From the NCBI GenBank assembly GCA_016178705.1, contig JACOST010000008.1, positions 1 through 64,000 of the forward strand: 64,000 bases of DNA, read 5' to 3'. This document shows positions 41,706 to 47,891 of the stretch, piece by piece. The position numbers and the translations under genes are program-made. The notes below the pieces were generated by a model. The model ran no database searches and was not told the DNA's origin. It saw nothing but the letters and a program-made list of their open reading frames with translations. Position 1 is the stretch's first letter, and each line of letters starts with the position of its first letter. The stretch is from Deltaproteobacteria bacterium (GTDB taxonomy: Bacteria > Desulfobacterota > Binatia > HRBIN30 > JACQVA1).

Positions 41706-42167
41706 TCAGCTCACCAAGCGCGGATCGAGGAGAAACGGTATCGATCGCCCAAATCTGAGGCGCCCGAACGCGGGGTGGGCGGGATTGAGCACGTAGTTCA
41801 AATCCTCCGGCACGATGGTGCTCGGTACCGCCAGCGCCAGGGCGCGGCCGGACACGAGCCACTCGTCGCCGATCCGCTGCGTCGCCAGCAGCCCGCGTGA
41901 CGTGCGCCAGTGTCGCGGCAACCGCCCGGCGGCCAGGCGATCGACTAGTTTGGAATCGACATCGAACGTGAACGCGACCAGACGCGGGAGCGGCCGGCCG
42001 ACGTCGAGATGCACAAGCACCTCCAGCACGGCGAGCGACTTCGTGGCGCTCGCATACACCGCCCGACGACCAGGCGAGTTCCAGCGCCCACCGAAGCGCT
42101 GCGCCGCTTTGCCGTCGAATGCCGTGGCCGCGTGCTTGCGTTTCACAACGCGCCACAACTGCGGCAT
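41706..42167 (-). CDS. RES-domain toxin
   Basis: 153 residues of the RES fold: LWRVVKRKHAATAFDGKAAQRFGGRWNSPG (Arg and the GGRWN block), AVYASATKSLAVLEVLVHL and the C-terminal VPSTIVPEDLNYVLNPAHPAF. RES toxins (ParT/MbcT type) destroy or modify NAD+ or target enzymes by ADP-ribosylation. Its start codon overlaps the antitoxin stop (TGATG). Confidence 0.93.
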   Translation of the reverse strand: MPQLWRVVKRKHAATAFDGKAAQRFGGRWNSPGRRAVYASATKSLAVLEVLVHLDVGRPLPRLVAFTFDVDSKLVDRLAAGRLPRHWRTSRGLLATQRIGDEWLVSGRALALAVPSTIVPEDLNYVLNPAHPAFGRLRFGRSIPFLLDPRLVS

Positions 42168-42604
42168 CAGGTGTACACGCCGTGCTCCAGGCGGCCAATG
42201 AGATTCTCGACCTCGCGCGCGCCGACTTCCGTCTGCGCGTGATCGAGAGGCGTTTCACCGTCGAGAACGCGGGCGGGTTTGCTCAGCCAAGCGCGCGCCG
42301 CATCCTCGTCGCCGTCGTGCAGTTCGGTGGCCAGACGGAACAGCCGCGCCAAGCGCAGCACCCGGTCGCTGTGGCCGGCGTCGAGGCGCTGGCCGCCTTG
42401 ACGGCGGCGGGAGAGCGTCGCGATCGAGAGGCCGATCCGCGCGGCGAGGTTCTCCACCGTGAGGCCGAGCAGCTTGCGCAGGGCATCCAGCTCAGCGACC
42501 GGCAGGCCTGCTTTAACTCGTGCCGCCGCCTCCCCGGCGCGCAGCGGCAGACCCTTGGCATGGGCCTTCACCAGCATCCGGGCGTGGACTGTATGGGCTT
42601 TCAT
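42167..42604 (-). CDS. Xre/MbcA/ParS-type antitoxin
   Basis: 145 residues. The N-terminal HTH part (LDALRKLLGLTVENLAARIGLSIATLSRRR) is followed by the MbcA/ParS/Xre C-terminal domain (DRVLRLARLFRLATELHDGDEDAARAWLSKPARVLDGETPLDHAQTE), which binds the RES toxin. The ATG at 42604 is preferred; the frame is open 14 codons further. The CATA...TATG inverted repeat around the start could be an autoregulatory operator. Confidence 0.92.
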   Translation of the reverse strand: MKAHTVHARMLVKAHAKGLPLRAGEAAARVKAGLPVAELDALRKLLGLTVENLAARIGLSIATLSRRRQGGQRLDAGHSDRVLRLARLFRLATELHDGDEDAARAWLSKPARVLDGETPLDHAQTEVGAREVENLIGRLEHGVYT

Positions 42605-42703
42605 ATGATTAGTATGAACCTTCCATTTGCAAGGAGCAAGAAGCATCCGTACGCCATGGCCCTGGTGGCGCGCACAGGGGCAACGACACGCTCGCCGCAG
42701 TCC

Positions 42704-43936
42704 TCACTTCGCCGGTGGCGGTACCGATCGGCGCCGGAGCAGATCATCGATGATACGCGCCATCTGGTGGCATGCCTCCTCGGCGCGGCTGAGGGAGCGA
42801 GCGGATTCCTCGTTCAGTTGCGGTTCCATCATGCCTACCAGTTCGAGGTAACCGGCGGCGGCGGTCAGCGGATTCTTCAGATCGTGCGCCACGGTCCTCG
42901 CGTAGGCGTCGAGCTCGCGAATGAGCCGGGCCCGTTCGGTGACATCGTGCAGCGCAACCAGCCGCCCGATCGTCGCTCGGGTTTCATCCCGAATCCGCAG
43001 CGACCTGATCTCGATCACGTGCCCGTCGTGGGCGATCTCGATACTGTCGCCGTCGCCTCGTTCCACCACTTCCCGCACTTGACTCCAGAAGGGGAGCAGC
43101 GCAGCCGCCAACGCCCCTTGTGCTCCTTCGTCGCCGAGCAGCAGGCGAGCGGCGGGGTTCGCGTCGATAACGCGCAGCGCCTCGTCCAGCACGATCACCG
43201 CGTCACGGTGTTGTTGGAAGAGCAGACTCCGCACCGCAGGCATGACATCGAGCAGGCGGTCGTGAAACGTGACCCAGGCCACAGCGGCGAAGGTCACGAG
43301 CAGCGCAAGGGGCGTCAGGTCGATTCCGCGTGTGAGCCGCGATACGACGAACAGGTTCACGATCAGCGGCGCCATCATGCCGAGGCTCAGCAGGACGGTC
43401 CGCCGCACGTAGAAGGTTGGCGACCCGATGGTGTGGGCGAAGAGCACGGCAACCCCGCCGAGGATCAGGCCATACGTCAGCGGCAGATGTAGCCAATAGA
43501 ACGCTGGGCCCGGCACCAGCGCCGGAATTCGGACGAATCCCATATCGGTCCACTCCGACGGTTGCCACATGAGATGATGATACGCATTCGTCGCCATCAA
43601 CATGATCTCGCCCGCCAGCGCGCCAACGACGGGCGCGCGAACCACCCGCCACCACCGCGTCCGCTGCGCATAGATGCAGGCGAAGCGGAAGAAGCAGACG
43701 GTCACACTCAAGATGACGGCCCAGGCCGCGCGACGTGCAAGCTCTTGAACCGGGGGAACGTCGAGGAGAAAGGACAGCGCATCGAGCGAGGTCCATAGCC
43801 CACACGACAGCAGGCAGCCGCCGAACCAGATCGCACCCGGTTGACCGCGGTTCTTCCAGAAGTACCACGCCAGCCAAAACGACCCGCCGGTCGCAGCTAG
43901 AAGGATCGGCGGGATTGCCTGTGCGAGGTTCAGCAT
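42704..43936 (-). CDS. 7TM sensor histidine kinase half: receptor, PAS and HisKA, no ATPase domain
   Basis: 410 residues. Seven membrane helices of the HisKA_7TM type lie in the first 220 residues (block YAQRTRWWRVVRAPVVGALAGEI, LMATNAYHHLMW). Then comes a PAS domain (DAVIVLDEALRVIDANPAARLLLG) and a dimerisation helix with the phospho-acceptor H351 in TVAHDLKNPLTAAAG. The protein stops about 60 residues after that His (DDLLRRRSVPPPAK), with no N, G1 or G2 box. It therefore cannot phosphorylate itself alone. It diverges by 145 bases from a paralogue that has the ATPase domain. The ATG at 43936 matches the paralogue start. Confidence 0.88.
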   Translation of the reverse strand: MLNLAQAIPPILLAATGGSFWLAWYFWKNRGQPGAIWFGGCLLSCGLWTSLDALSFLLDVPPVQELARRAAWAVILSVTVCFFRFACIYAQRTRWWRVVRAPVVGALAGEIMLMATNAYHHLMWQPSEWTDMGFVRIPALVPGPAFYWLHLPLTYGLILGGVAVLFAHTIGSPTFYVRRTVLLSLGMMAPLIVNLFVVSRLTRGIDLTPLALLVTFAAVAWVTFHDRLLDVMPAVRSLLFQQHRDAVIVLDEALRVIDANPAARLLLGDEGAQGALAAALLPFWSQVREVVERGDGDSIEIAHDGHVIEIRSLRIRDETRATIGRLVALHDVTERARLIRELDAYARTVAHDLKNPLTAAAGYLELVGMMEPQLNEESARSLSRAEEACHQMARIIDDLLRRRSVPPPAK

Positions 43937-44081
43937 GGAGCTGGTCCCTTTATTCTGCGGCACGGGCAGAAGTGCAAGCGCGACCGCAACGAATGGGCGT
44001 CCGAACCAACGGCACTCCGACCCGCCGCCAGCAGCCGCTCGAGAGTTTGTGCAAACCGGCGGCGCCCGATAAGCAGGCTGA

Positions 44082-45782
44082 ATGCTCGAGCAAAAAGTCT
44101 ACGAGCTGGTGCCGTGGGTGCTTGGGCTCGCCACGATCGGCGCCTTGGTCTTGTCGCTCTACACGTGGGCGCGTCGCCAACAGGCCGGGACGAGCTGGCT
44201 GGCGCTCACACTCTTCACCGGGGCTCTCTGGACCGCATTCGACTTGTTCAACTACGTCGTCGATCTCCCGGCCATCGAGGTGATCGTGAAGTGCGCGACA
44301 TGGCCCTTGATCCTCATGGCCGGCGTTTCGTTCTTCCGCTTCGCCTGCATCCACGCCCGCCGAGAGCACTGGTGGGAGCTGGCGCGTGTCCCGGTGATGG
44401 TGGCCATTGTTATCAACCTGCTCCTTATGGTCACCAATCCGTATCATCATCTTTTGTGGCCGGGTGAGCGGTGGCTCACCTTCGGCGACGCGCATGTCCC
44501 GTGGCTCGAATCGGGGCCCGCGTTCTTCTGGATTTTCCGCAACACGGCCTGCGCCCTGCCCTTGGCCGGCATGCTCGCGCTGGTGATCAGCGCGGTCGGA
44601 TCGCCGAGCGTCTACGCGCGGCAAATCGCGGCGCTGGTCACGGGGGCGCTGATCCCCATTTTCGTGAACCTCTTTCTCGTCTCTCCGACGGCTCCCGGAG
44701 TTGACCTCACTCCGATCGCAGTGGTCGGGTCCGTGAGCTTGTTCGCACTGTCCACGTTTCGCTTCGGTCTCCTCGACGTCATGCCTGTGGCGCGCAGTCT
44801 GCTGCTCGCGCAGCTCGACGACGGAGTCATCGTGCTCGACCCGGCGCTGCGCGTCGTGGATCTCAATCCCGCCGCCGAGCGCCTGCTGGGACTCCAACAC
44901 GGATGGACACCGGGCCGACCGGCCGAACAGATGCTACCGTTCTGGGGCAGCGTGAAGCAATTGATCGAAACCAGTGACGGCCAGCCAATGGAGACCACGC
45001 TCGGTGGCGAGAGCGGAGCGGTCTTGGAGCTCACGTCGTCGATCGTCCACGGGGAAGACGGCGCATCGCGCGGCCGATTGATCGTCGCGCATGATATCAC
45101 CGCGCGCGCACAGCTCGTCCGCGAGCTCGATGCCTATGCGCAGACGGTCGCGCGCGATCTCAAGAACCCGCTCGCCTCCGTGATCGATGCCATCGACGCG
45201 TTTCGCCAGCGCGGCGAGCGCGTCAGCGACACGTCGTCGCTGTACTTGCAGAATGCCGAGCGGGTGTGCGGACAAATGACGGCGACCGTGGACGCCCTTC
45301 TTCGCTTCGCGCAACTGCGCACGCTGGATGAAGTCGACGTCGAGGCCATCGACATGGCCAACATAGTCGACTCCGCGCTGCGCCGATTGTCGGCCGCGAT
45401 CGCCGAGTCGCACGCCGAGATCGAACGTGGCAATCGCTGGCCCGCTGCCGTCAGCCATCCGGTCTGGGTCGAGGAGATCTGGACCAACTACATCTCCAAC
45501 GCGATCAAATACGGTGGCCAACCGCCGCACGTCGAGCTGGGGGCGTCCGAAGAAGGCGATCGGATGGTGCGTTACTGGGTACGCGACAATGGGCCCGGAT
45601 TGAGCGAAGAGCAGCGCCGCCAGCTCTTCACCGAGTTCACGCGTCTCGACCCGAAACGATCGGAAGGCCACGGGCTCGGCCTATCGATCGTGCAACGGAT
45701 CGCGGAGAAGCTCGGCGGTGGCGTGGGTTGCAGCAGCACCATGGGTCAGGGCAGCACATTCTGGTTCACGCTGCCCACCTAG
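44082..45782 (+). CDS. 7TM sensor histidine kinase with ATPase domain but Arg in place of the phospho-acceptor His
   Basis: 566 residues: the same seven-helix receptor (FFRFACIHARREHWW, LLMVTNPYHHLLWPG), PAS (DGVIVLDPALRVVDLNPAAERLLG), HisKA and HATPase. The N box is EEIWTNYISNAIKYG, G1 is VRDNGPGLSEE and G2 is EGHGLGLSIVQRI. The H box reads TVARDLKNPLASV, with Arg (R358, codon CGC at 45153) where the paralogue has His. It should bind ATP but cannot accept phosphate at the usual site. It may phosphorylate the paralogue in trans. No response regulator lies nearby. Confidence 0.9.
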   Translation: MLEQKVYELVPWVLGLATIGALVLSLYTWARRQQAGTSWLALTLFTGALWTAFDLFNYVVDLPAIEVIVKCATWPLILMAGVSFFRFACIHARREHWWELARVPVMVAIVINLLLMVTNPYHHLLWPGERWLTFGDAHVPWLESGPAFFWIFRNTACALPLAGMLALVISAVGSPSVYARQIAALVTGALIPIFVNLFLVSPTAPGVDLTPIAVVGSVSLFALSTFRFGLLDVMPVARSLLLAQLDDGVIVLDPALRVVDLNPAAERLLGLQHGWTPGRPAEQMLPFWGSVKQLIETSDGQPMETTLGGESGAVLELTSSIVHGEDGASRGRLIVAHDITARAQLVRELDAYAQTVARDLKNPLASVIDAIDAFRQRGERVSDTSSLYLQNAERVCGQMTATVDALLRFAQLRTLDEVDVEAIDMANIVDSALRRLSAAIAESHAEIERGNRWPAAVSHPVWVEEIWTNYISNAIKYGGQPPHVELGASEEGDRMVRYWVRDNGPGLSEEQRRQLFTEFTRLDPKRSEGHGLGLSIVQRIAEKLGGGVGCSSTMGQGSTFWFTLPT

Positions 45783-45920: not shown

Positions 45921-47198
45921 TCACGCTGAGCCGGCTGGGTCCACTGGTCGTTCGCGCCGCTCCGCGCGGCGTCGCTGCAGGAAGCGGCGGACAGCGGGAT
46001 CGGCTTCCAAGCCGATCGCTCGCTCGTAGGCGGCATCGGCCGCTGCCACGTCGCACGTCTGCGCCAGCAGTCCGGCGCGCGCGGCCCAATAGGGTTGATA
46101 GTTGGTGAGTCGCGGATCGTCCGAGACCGTATCGAGCGCCGCGAGACCGGCGGCGGGACCGCGCGTCTCGGCGACCGCGATAGCCCGATTGATCGCCACC
46201 ACCGGCGAGCCGGTCATCACCAGGAGCGCGTCGTAGATGCGCTCGATAGCGGCCCAGTCTGAGCGGCCGGTGAGCCGGCGGACAACATGGGCCGACTGCA
46301 CCGCGGCTTCGAGTTGGTAACGACCGGCCCCGGGCAAGGTACTGGCGCGCGCGAGCAGAGCTTCGGCCTCCTCGATCAGCGGTGTGTCCCACATGGTCGG
46401 GTCCTGATCCGCGAGCGGCACGTATTCGCCACGCGAGTCGCGCCGTGCGTCGCGCCGCGCTTGCGCATAGAGCATCAGCGAGAGCAGACCCAGCGCCTCG
46501 GGCTCGTCCGGCAACAGCGAGGCAACCAGGCGACCCAACCAGATCCCTTCCTCGGCGAGGTTGCGGCGTCGGGTTTCCGTGCCGGCGGGTTCCGACCAGC
46601 CTTCGGAAAAGGCGGCATAGATCGCCTCGAGCACAGCGTCTAGCCGCCCACTGAGTTCACTGCGCTCGGGCACGTGAAACGGTATGCCGGCGTGGCGGAT
46701 CTTATTCTTCGCGCGCACCAATCGCTGGGCCATCGTCGCGGGCGAGACGAGAAACGCCGAGCCGATGGCAGCGGCGTCGAACCCCAGGATGGTCTGCAGA
46801 ATCAGCGGCGCGCGGATGCCGGCGTCGATCGCCGGGTGGGCACAGGCAAACATCAGCGCGAGTCGCTCGTCGGGCATCCTCGTTTCGCTTCCTGCGGCGG
46901 CCTCGATCTCGTCGGCCATCAATCGGAGATGATCGGTCGCGTCTACCCGGCTGCGCCGGCGCCGGGAAGCATCGATCAGCTTGCGCCGCGCTACCGTCAT
47001 CAGCCACGCCTCGGGAGTATCGGGAACGCCGCTGGCCGGCCAATCGACGAGAGCGGCCGCGAAGGCATCGGACAGCGCATCCTCCGCTCCAGAGACGTCG
47101 CCGGTTCGGGCCGCCAGAAAGGCGACGAGCTTGCCGTAGCTTCGCCGCGCTACCGCTTCGGCGGCGTCGCGGGCAGCGCCTTCGTCCGCTCTCGGCAT
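45921..47198 (-). CDS. ECF-type sigma factor with C-terminal extension (ECF42-like)
   Basis: 425 residues: sigma2/sigma4 regions (KLVAFLAARTGDVSGAEDALSDAFAAAL, AWLMTVARRKLIDASRRRRSR, QTILGFDAAAIGSAFLVSPATMAQRLVRAKNKIR). A long TPR-like extension follows (SLMLYAQARRDARRDSRGEYVPLADQDPTMWD), the hallmark of the sigma group that pairs with DGPF/YCII proteins, which is exactly the upstream neighbour. GGAG stands 7 bases before the ATG at 47198. It probably has no anti-sigma factor and is controlled through its extension. Confidence 0.92.
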   Translation of the reverse strand: MPRADEGAARDAAEAVARRSYGKLVAFLAARTGDVSGAEDALSDAFAAALVDWPASGVPDTPEAWLMTVARRKLIDASRRRRSRVDATDHLRLMADEIEAAAGSETRMPDERLALMFACAHPAIDAGIRAPLILQTILGFDAAAIGSAFLVSPATMAQRLVRAKNKIRHAGIPFHVPERSELSGRLDAVLEAIYAAFSEGWSEPAGTETRRRNLAEEGIWLGRLVASLLPDEPEALGLLSLMLYAQARRDARRDSRGEYVPLADQDPTMWDTPLIEEAEALLARASTLPGAGRYQLEAAVQSAHVVRRLTGRSDWAAIERIYDALLVMTGSPVVAINRAIAVAETRGPAAGLAALDTVSDDPRLTNYQPYWAARAGLLAQTCDVAAADAAYERAIGLEADPAVRRFLQRRRAERRERPVDPAGSA

Positions 47199-47264
47199 CG
47201 CATCACTCCGCTTAACCCGGAGAAGCAGCCGCCTCTTTCTTCCGATAGGATTCAACGAACCGAG

Positions 47265-47600
47265 TTACCTGGGCCAGACCGGGCGGACTTCGACCTTACC
47301 ACGACTCGCACTCGGGCAGCGGGCTGCCCACGCAAGGGCGGTGTCGAGATCGGGCACGTCGATGATGTGAAATCCGCCGAGCTGTTCCTTGGCCTCGGCG
47401 TAGGGTCCATCAACCACGTGGGTCTTACCGTCGGCCACGCGCACTGTGGTCGCCGTCGACATCGCTCGCAGGCGTTCCCCAATCACATAGATGCCCGCCT
47501 TCTTCATCGCTTCGGCGTAGGCGGCACAGGTGGGCATGCGCGTATCCATGTTCGCCACCCGCTCCGCGTCGTCTTCGTAGATCAGCAACATATACTTCAT
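47265..47600 (-). CDS. YCII/DGPF-domain protein
   Basis: 111 residues of the YCII-like dimeric alpha-beta fold: MKYMLLIYEDDAERV, KAGIYVIGERL, DGKTHVVDGPYAEAKEQLGGFHIIDV (the DGPF-type motif reads DGPYAE). AAAGGAG stands before the ATG at 47600. It is the usual partner of ECF42 sigma factors and probably modulates or senses for the sigma factor downstream; mechanism unknown. Confidence 0.92.
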   Translation of the reverse strand: MKYMLLIYEDDAERVANMDTRMPTCAAYAEAMKKAGIYVIGERLRAMSTATTVRVADGKTHVVDGPYAEAKEQLGGFHIIDVPDLDTALAWAARCPSASRGKVEVRPVWPR

Positions 47601-47891
47601 GCAGGTCTCCTTTACTCGCACGCTCCGACGACGGGTTGCTCATCGAACACGTTGTGGCCGCTTGATATCTCCATCCTCGCCGTGGTCCAAGGGCTGGGTA
47701 CACCAGATACTCGTTCGGGGGAGCCCAGAATCGACAACCGGCGCGGAATTCTTTTCTTGAGTATGTCGATCTGGAGCCGGCCCGTGCGACATCATAGCGG
47801 AACCACCCGCAACGGCGCGGGTTGGTGGTGGAGCGATAGCGTGAAGAAGCGGCCGGCGAAGACCGGCGCGAAGCGTAGAAGGGAGTGAAGG

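Follow-up and report, generated by a model that had tools for sequence, protein, structure and literature searches.

A divergent pair of sister 7TM sensor kinases with complementary losses, a candidate split histidine kinase in a bacterium of the class Binatia

We describe 2 divergently transcribed sensor-kinase genes in a 64,000-nucleotide stretch of DNA (positions 1 to 64,000 of contig JACOST010000008.1, assembly GCA_016178705.1; the whole stretch is hereafter called the window). The minus-strand open reading frame (ORF) at 42704-43963 encodes P0001 (419 residues) and the plus-strand ORF at 44082-45782 encodes P0002 (566 residues). Both proteins derive from HisKA_7TM sensor histidine kinases and share a seven-transmembrane (7TM) receptor, a PAS domain, and a dimerisation and histidine phosphotransfer (DHp) domain. 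P0001 bears the phospho-acceptor His and has no catalytic and ATP-binding (CA) domain, while P0002 carries Arg at the phospho-acceptor position and has the CA domain, so that neither is a complete kinase. The features of the pair are:

42704..43963, minus strand: P0001, HisKA_7TM receptor, PAS, and DHp with the His, without CA (ORF, Pfam, six-frame CA profile)
42884..42886, minus strand: CAC codon, phospho-acceptor His in VAHDLKNPL (DNA and translation)
43238..43903, minus strand: HisKA_7TM domain of P0001 (profile match, 130.2 bits)
43937..44081, no strand: common intergenic region of the two genes, with the ATG taken as the P0001 start (sequence, promoter scan)
44082..45782, plus strand: P0002, HisKA_7TM receptor, PAS, His-less DHp, and intact CA/ATPase (ORF, Pfam)
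44124..44786, plus strand: HisKA_7TM domain of P0002 (profile match, 121.6 bits)
45153..45155, plus strand: CGC codon, encoding Arg in place of the phospho-acceptor His, in VARDLKNPL (DNA and alignment)
45459..45779, plus strand: HATPase_c (CA) domain of P0002 (profile match)

In Pfam searches, P0001 matches HisKA_7TM (128.1 bits), PAS_4, and HisKA (48.6 bits), and P0002 matches HisKA_7TM (118.5 bits), PAS_4, HATPase_c (79.1 bits) and, weakly, HisKA (20.0 bits; cut-off 26.9). Both exceed the curated cut-off of 28.6 bits for HisKA_7TM (PF16927). Searches of the PDB return ordinary histidine kinases by fold and one histidine kinase, 4i5s, by sequence. In P0001 the phospho-acceptor His is residue 360 when numbered from a GTG start and residue 351 when numbered from an in-frame ATG at 43936, the likelier start; the protein ends 59 residues past this His with no HATPase_c match at E <= 0.01. 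In P0002 the N, G1, and G2 boxes are all present. The His and the catalytic domain are therefore on separate polypeptides, as in a split kinase, and P0002 by itself, with the His replaced and the CA retained, has the makeup of a pseudo-histidine kinase of the DivL kind. These results bear out a preliminary description made from the sequence alone, which had read the genes as divergent paralogues sharing receptor, PAS, and DHp, placing H351 in a minus-strand protein that ends about 60 residues later without an ATPase domain and Arg in a plus-strand protein with intact N, G1, and G2 boxes.

A search of all 6 frames of the window with a CA profile of the family finds P0002 and otherwise only matches of E ~4, with no CA remnant recognisable beside P0001, and a frameshift concealing a CA domain in this gene was rejected on this ground. 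Repeats near the P0001 truncation point amount to short pairs plus the paralogy itself. A scan of the divergent intergenic region for a sigma-70-like promoter found none.

Relatives were fetched from a scan of GTDB contigs by 2 patterns inside the DHp domain, one of which permits His or Arg, and the best 80 of 481 confirmed loci were kept, a sampling that favours well-kept DHp domains. All 80 have both the His and the CA, 78 of the 79 aligned rows directly and L081 in a second frame. The 79 rows come from the 80 loci with none for L044 and L077 and 2 for L040; a separate check of L044, L077, and L081, the last with its 2 frames, found the His and the CA boxes in each, in L077 up to G1, its contig ending inside the CA. 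Because the fetched relatives are whole, the ancestor was most likely a whole kinase too, and both defects probably arose in this lineage. A tree of 73 rows joins P0001 and P0002 as sisters with support of 100/100; the stem of the pair measures 1.51 and the branches leading to the 2 proteins 0.78 and 0.88 changes per column, which marks an old pair.

The genome assembly (6.1 Mb in 33 contigs) holds, at the thresholds used, 87 HisKA, 94 HATPase_c, and 89 receiver matches. A pattern search left 14 of the 87 HisKA rows without a recognised His, and 12 of these 14 have it when judged by eye. The phospho-acceptor position is thus His in 85 domains, Arg in P0002, and Tyr in one of 2 domains on contig C11, and P0002 is the sole case among the 87 of a His-less HisKA followed by a CA domain. 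For 4 of the 87 HisKA matches no HATPase_c follows in the next 600 bases, namely P0001, one on contig C31, and 2 in a single ORF on C11. The one on C31 belongs to a PAS-HisKA-REC protein with its His present and no HATPase_c match, encoded by a plus-strand ORF at 602-1759 of the region C31:121118-123926 (L184). The ORF on C11, at 540-1553 on the minus strand of the region C11:73266-75077 (L164), has a 337-residue product with the odd order HATPase-HisKA-HisKA, the first HisKA with Tyr (NLSYELRTP) and the second with His (TTSHELRTP). The 8 HisKA_7TM matches of the genome include the closest paralogue of the pair, P0003, likewise on C31, which belongs to the same subfamily and is a full kinase with both His and CA.

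Conservation differs among the domains of the pair. Scores come from leave-one-out profiles against 69 relatives, from which rows with MSHE-type or other boxes were excluded; L034, on the same contig as the intact relative L010, is left out of the profiles and included in the counts of conserved columns (70 rows). The CA of P0002 scores 221.6 bits, at least as high as 58 of the 69 relatives, next to 206.9 for P0003 and 211.4 for L010. It keeps 51 of 55 conserved columns (P0003 50/55, L010 53/55) and is 53% identical to the CA of P0003 and 54% to that of L010, these two sharing 51% between them, while the 7TM domain of P0002 is only 21% identical to P0003 and 19% to L010. The would-be catalytic partner thus conserves its CA. 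Its DHp, by contrast, is relaxed: the score of 57.1 lies below all 69 relatives (minimum 74.5; P0003 85.0, L010 80.0), and 13 of 16 conserved columns are kept. After the H-box P0002 scores 4.5 bits, a value to be weighed against 18.0 in P0001, 19.2 in the intact L010, which itself lies below all 69, and 26.7 in P0003 (relatives' minimum 22.2); the H-box half scores at least as high as 5 of the 69 in P0002.

A single base separates the CGC codon from a codon for His, and an isolated base error was considered. Once the His column is masked and the end of the domain trimmed, however, P0002 still scores 57.4, below every relative (minimum 66.2), next to 68.2 for P0001 (at least 3/69), 73.8 for P0003 (10/69), and 67.7 for L010 (1/69). 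Since the low rank of the DHp persists without that column, the change of the His is not isolated, and the error was rejected. This pattern of conservation, with the H-box kept in P0001, fits complementary loss better than a single wrong base.

P0001 has kept its H-box and is weak elsewhere. Its H-box half scores at least as high as 45 of the 69 relatives (P0003 31/69, L010 1/69), and 15 of 16 conserved DHp columns are kept, the one miss being the cut-off end; the score of the whole domain, 70.3, also lies below 69/69, but the domain is cut at its end. The 7TM scores are low in both proteins (P0001 122.5 and P0002 122.6, each at least as high as 2/69), as they are in the intact P0003 (166.0; 4/69) and L010 (152.6; 3/69). 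The complementary defects claimed in the preliminary description are real, P0001 being CA-less and P0002 His-less, and the domain scores are in keeping with a complementary loss. The interpretation given there is supported to that extent, the heterodimer with phosphorylation in trans and the dependence of signalling on both sensors being hypothetical. Of the 2 proteins P0002 is the clearer case, having preserved its would-be contribution to a common enzyme (the CA) and relaxed the part that P0001 would supply (the DHp).

A split histidine kinase formed by complementary loss is, tentatively, the best single explanation, and the main argument for it is the kept CA and relaxed DHp of P0002 combined with the kept H-box of P0001. 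Under this reading, one ancestral 7TM-PAS histidine kinase would have duplicated, and the sister copies would have lost complementary halves. P0002 would bind ATP and contribute the catalytic CA domain, P0001 would contribute the phospho-acceptor His, and P0002 would phosphorylate that His in trans, either within a mixed dimer or through contact between 2 homodimers. P0001 would then act as phosphate donor to a response regulator whose gene lies elsewhere, and output would require the agreement of both receptors. The strictest form, an obligate two-receptor AND gate in which 2 different 7TM receptors must meet in a membrane-bound HisKA-class split kinase before the His is phosphorylated, is rather doubtful.

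Several observations weigh against a split kinase, the first set concerning the contact between the 2 proteins. Beyond the H-box, the DHp domains of P0001 and P0002 are identical at only 10 of 43 positions, which appears unfavourable for heterodimerisation, vs 15 of 43 between P0001 and P0003. AlphaFold single-chain models of the 2 proteins are of good quality overall, with mean predicted local distance difference test (pLDDT) scores of 87.3 and 88.3 from alignments of 55 and 45 rows, but model confidence over the DHp, in blocks of 10 residues, is 68-80 in P0002 vs 86-92 in P0001. If autophosphorylation in this family proceeds in cis, standard dimer geometry would leave the CA of P0002 out of reach of the His of P0001.

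The same identities bear on a different partner for P0001, which may be phosphorylated by or paired with another kinase, most likely the intact P0003, with P0002 acting separately. P0001 shares 19 of 20 residues of the H-box region with P0003 and more of the remaining DHp, as given above; its closest relative on the tree is nevertheless P0002, its divergent neighbour, whereas P0003 lies on a different contig. We regard this arrangement as improbable.

The divergence of the DHp domains also suits a pair of regulatory pseudokinases, which we consider possible though on the unlikely side. P0002 would modulate another kinase, or read the state of a regulator, through its CA and receptor and give no phosphate output, and P0001 would be an independent decoy, phosphatase, or phosphotransfer protein, the pair not being one enzyme. 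Precedents exist. In Caulobacter, CckA is regulated by DivL, a pseudo-histidine kinase without catalytic activity (PMC9491836, PMC12189002; see also PMC4211667), and an evolved ChrS that lost its CA by frameshift raises heme tolerance through its partner HrrS (PMC9491836). P0002 resembles DivL in lacking the His and P0001 resembles the evolved ChrS in lacking the CA. However, DivL and ChrS act on an intact kinase, whereas P0001 and P0002 are 2 defective sisters that are complementary on paper. HisKA proteins that lack the CA but conserve the His form, moreover, a known and mostly unexplained class (PMC3591291, PMC5847659). Regulatory pseudokinases leave the complementarity of the losses in adjacent sister genes unexplained, and a protein serving purely as a scaffold would presumably have no need of CA boxes as fully kept as those of P0002.

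The ChrS case also speaks against a split kinase: in two-hybrid assays native ChrS forms a heterodimer with HrrS and CA-less ChrS does not (PMC9491836). Loss of the CA is likewise common, with 1556 of 42417 HisKA proteins in SMART (3.66%) having no HATPase (PMC3591291), and archaea include a class described as HisKA without HATPase (PMC5847659). P0001 is a protein of this type and keeps the HDxxN motif; the others are listed with no partner given, whereas P0001 has a sister with the missing domain adjoining it. As CA-less HisKA proteins are not rare, the adjacency of the 2 defects could be a coincidence: taking 3 proteins among ~85 to lack the CA, the His-less kinase would have one of them as its neighbour in about 3-4 cases of 100, by a crude estimate.

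A further set of unfavourable observations concerns P0001 itself and its relatives. The PAS domain of P0001 scores 61.6 bits, at least as high as only 1 of the 69 relatives (P0002 82.3, 8/69; P0003 87.1, 14/69), and its DHp after the H-box lies below all 69, though the intact L010 does likewise. A search with P0001 at E <= 1e-30 (12 candidates scored in each of 145 genomes, its own included) matches 1 of the 144 other genomes, G011 of the same order, which has one intact homologue, and gives no orthologous pair; a search with P0002 at E <= 1e-60 (3 candidates scored in each of 395 genomes, its own included) matches none of the 394 other genomes of the phylum. As such, a second genome with the pair was not found in these limited searches. 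HisKA_7TM matches occur in 50 of the 145 genomes of the class, where the His and CA were read in G011 and L192 only. L192 is on contig C81 of G012, a genome of the same order, and contains from about position 1501 a HisKA_7TM frame of 264 residues that stops within the PAS region; neither DHp nor CA was found in the 3.4 kb fetched, and the frame represents a truncated relative. None of the 89 receivers (E <= 1e-6) lies on C8, the 180-kb contig that carries the pair, and no response regulator is near.

These observations bring in a decaying pair, in which one duplicate lost its CA, perhaps on the arrival of a neighbouring toxin-antitoxin module, the other lost its His, and P0001 at least is now functionless. 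The module is:

41706..42646, minus strand: Xre/MbcA/ParS-type antitoxin and RES-domain toxin genes (ORFs, Pfam)

It lies directly downstream of P0001, starting 57 bp from the stop, and its placement there may correspond to the event by which the CA was lost. Because the PAS and later DHp of P0001 score low and a truncated relative exists, we gave the split kinase slightly less weight and decay slightly more. The low 7TM scores point the same way, with the reservation that the intact P0003 and L010 are low too, and so does the lack of orthologues in the searches. Decay nevertheless seems unlikely. The broken frames or uniform relaxation of a pseudogene are not seen: both frames are open, with GC at third positions of 0.78 and 0.82 despite the long divergence on the tree, the CA of P0002 is normally conserved, and the H-box of P0001 is kept; relaxed-looking parts are the DHp of P0002 and the PAS of P0001.

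The CheA proteins include characterised split kinases. For example, CheA3 and CheA4 of Rhodobacter sphaeroides are each inactive alone and active when mixed (PMC3591291), and Hik36 and Hik43 form a split CheA in Synechocystis (PMC7656254). In both systems the His and the catalytic domain are on 2 proteins, each expected to be inactive alone, as at our locus. They differ in being CheA kinases, whose His is carried by a P1/HPt domain, whereas P0001 and P0002, known from sequence alone, are HisKA-class 7TM receptors with receptor, PAS, and DHp in both. The RetS-GacS heterodimer (PMC12189002) and 2 Myxococcus hybrid kinases with interprotein phosphotransfer (PMC8175716) likewise have 2 different kinases of one cell signal to each other; these are larger hybrid kinases, whereas P0001 and P0002 have complementary losses and no receiver domain. 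In the laboratory, EnvZ split into HisKA and HATPase polypeptides can retain activity (cited in PMC3591291), the difference being that EnvZ was a construct and P0001/P0002 a natural, putative split.

Among the papers listed in the literature searches, from which most subscription papers are absent, none was seen to describe a natural membrane HisKA-class split pair, and a search on Myxococcus EspA/EspC gave no paper on these two as a pair. By a count published in 2013, 711 HisKA proteins without a CA are possible split bifunctional kinases (PMC3591291), and to these the locus adds a candidate partner adjoining the gene and a direct prediction. If true, the split kinase would show how a homodimeric receptor kinase becomes an obligate heteromer through complementary loss, and it would be a natural two-input sensor.

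Elsewhere in the genome, the region C6:72000-91000 (L015) carries 4 tandem HisKA_7TM kinases at 77.5-88.4 kb, each match followed by HisKA and HATPase_c matches, with a further HisKA-HATPase_c kinase directly upstream of this array at 76.2-77.2 kb. At C24:82716-83428, a HisKA match and a partial HATPase_c match, separated by 312 bases, lie in different frames and may be the pieces of a frameshifted kinase. Within the window, an ECF-type sigma factor with DUF6596 adjoins a YCII-domain protein at 45921-47621.

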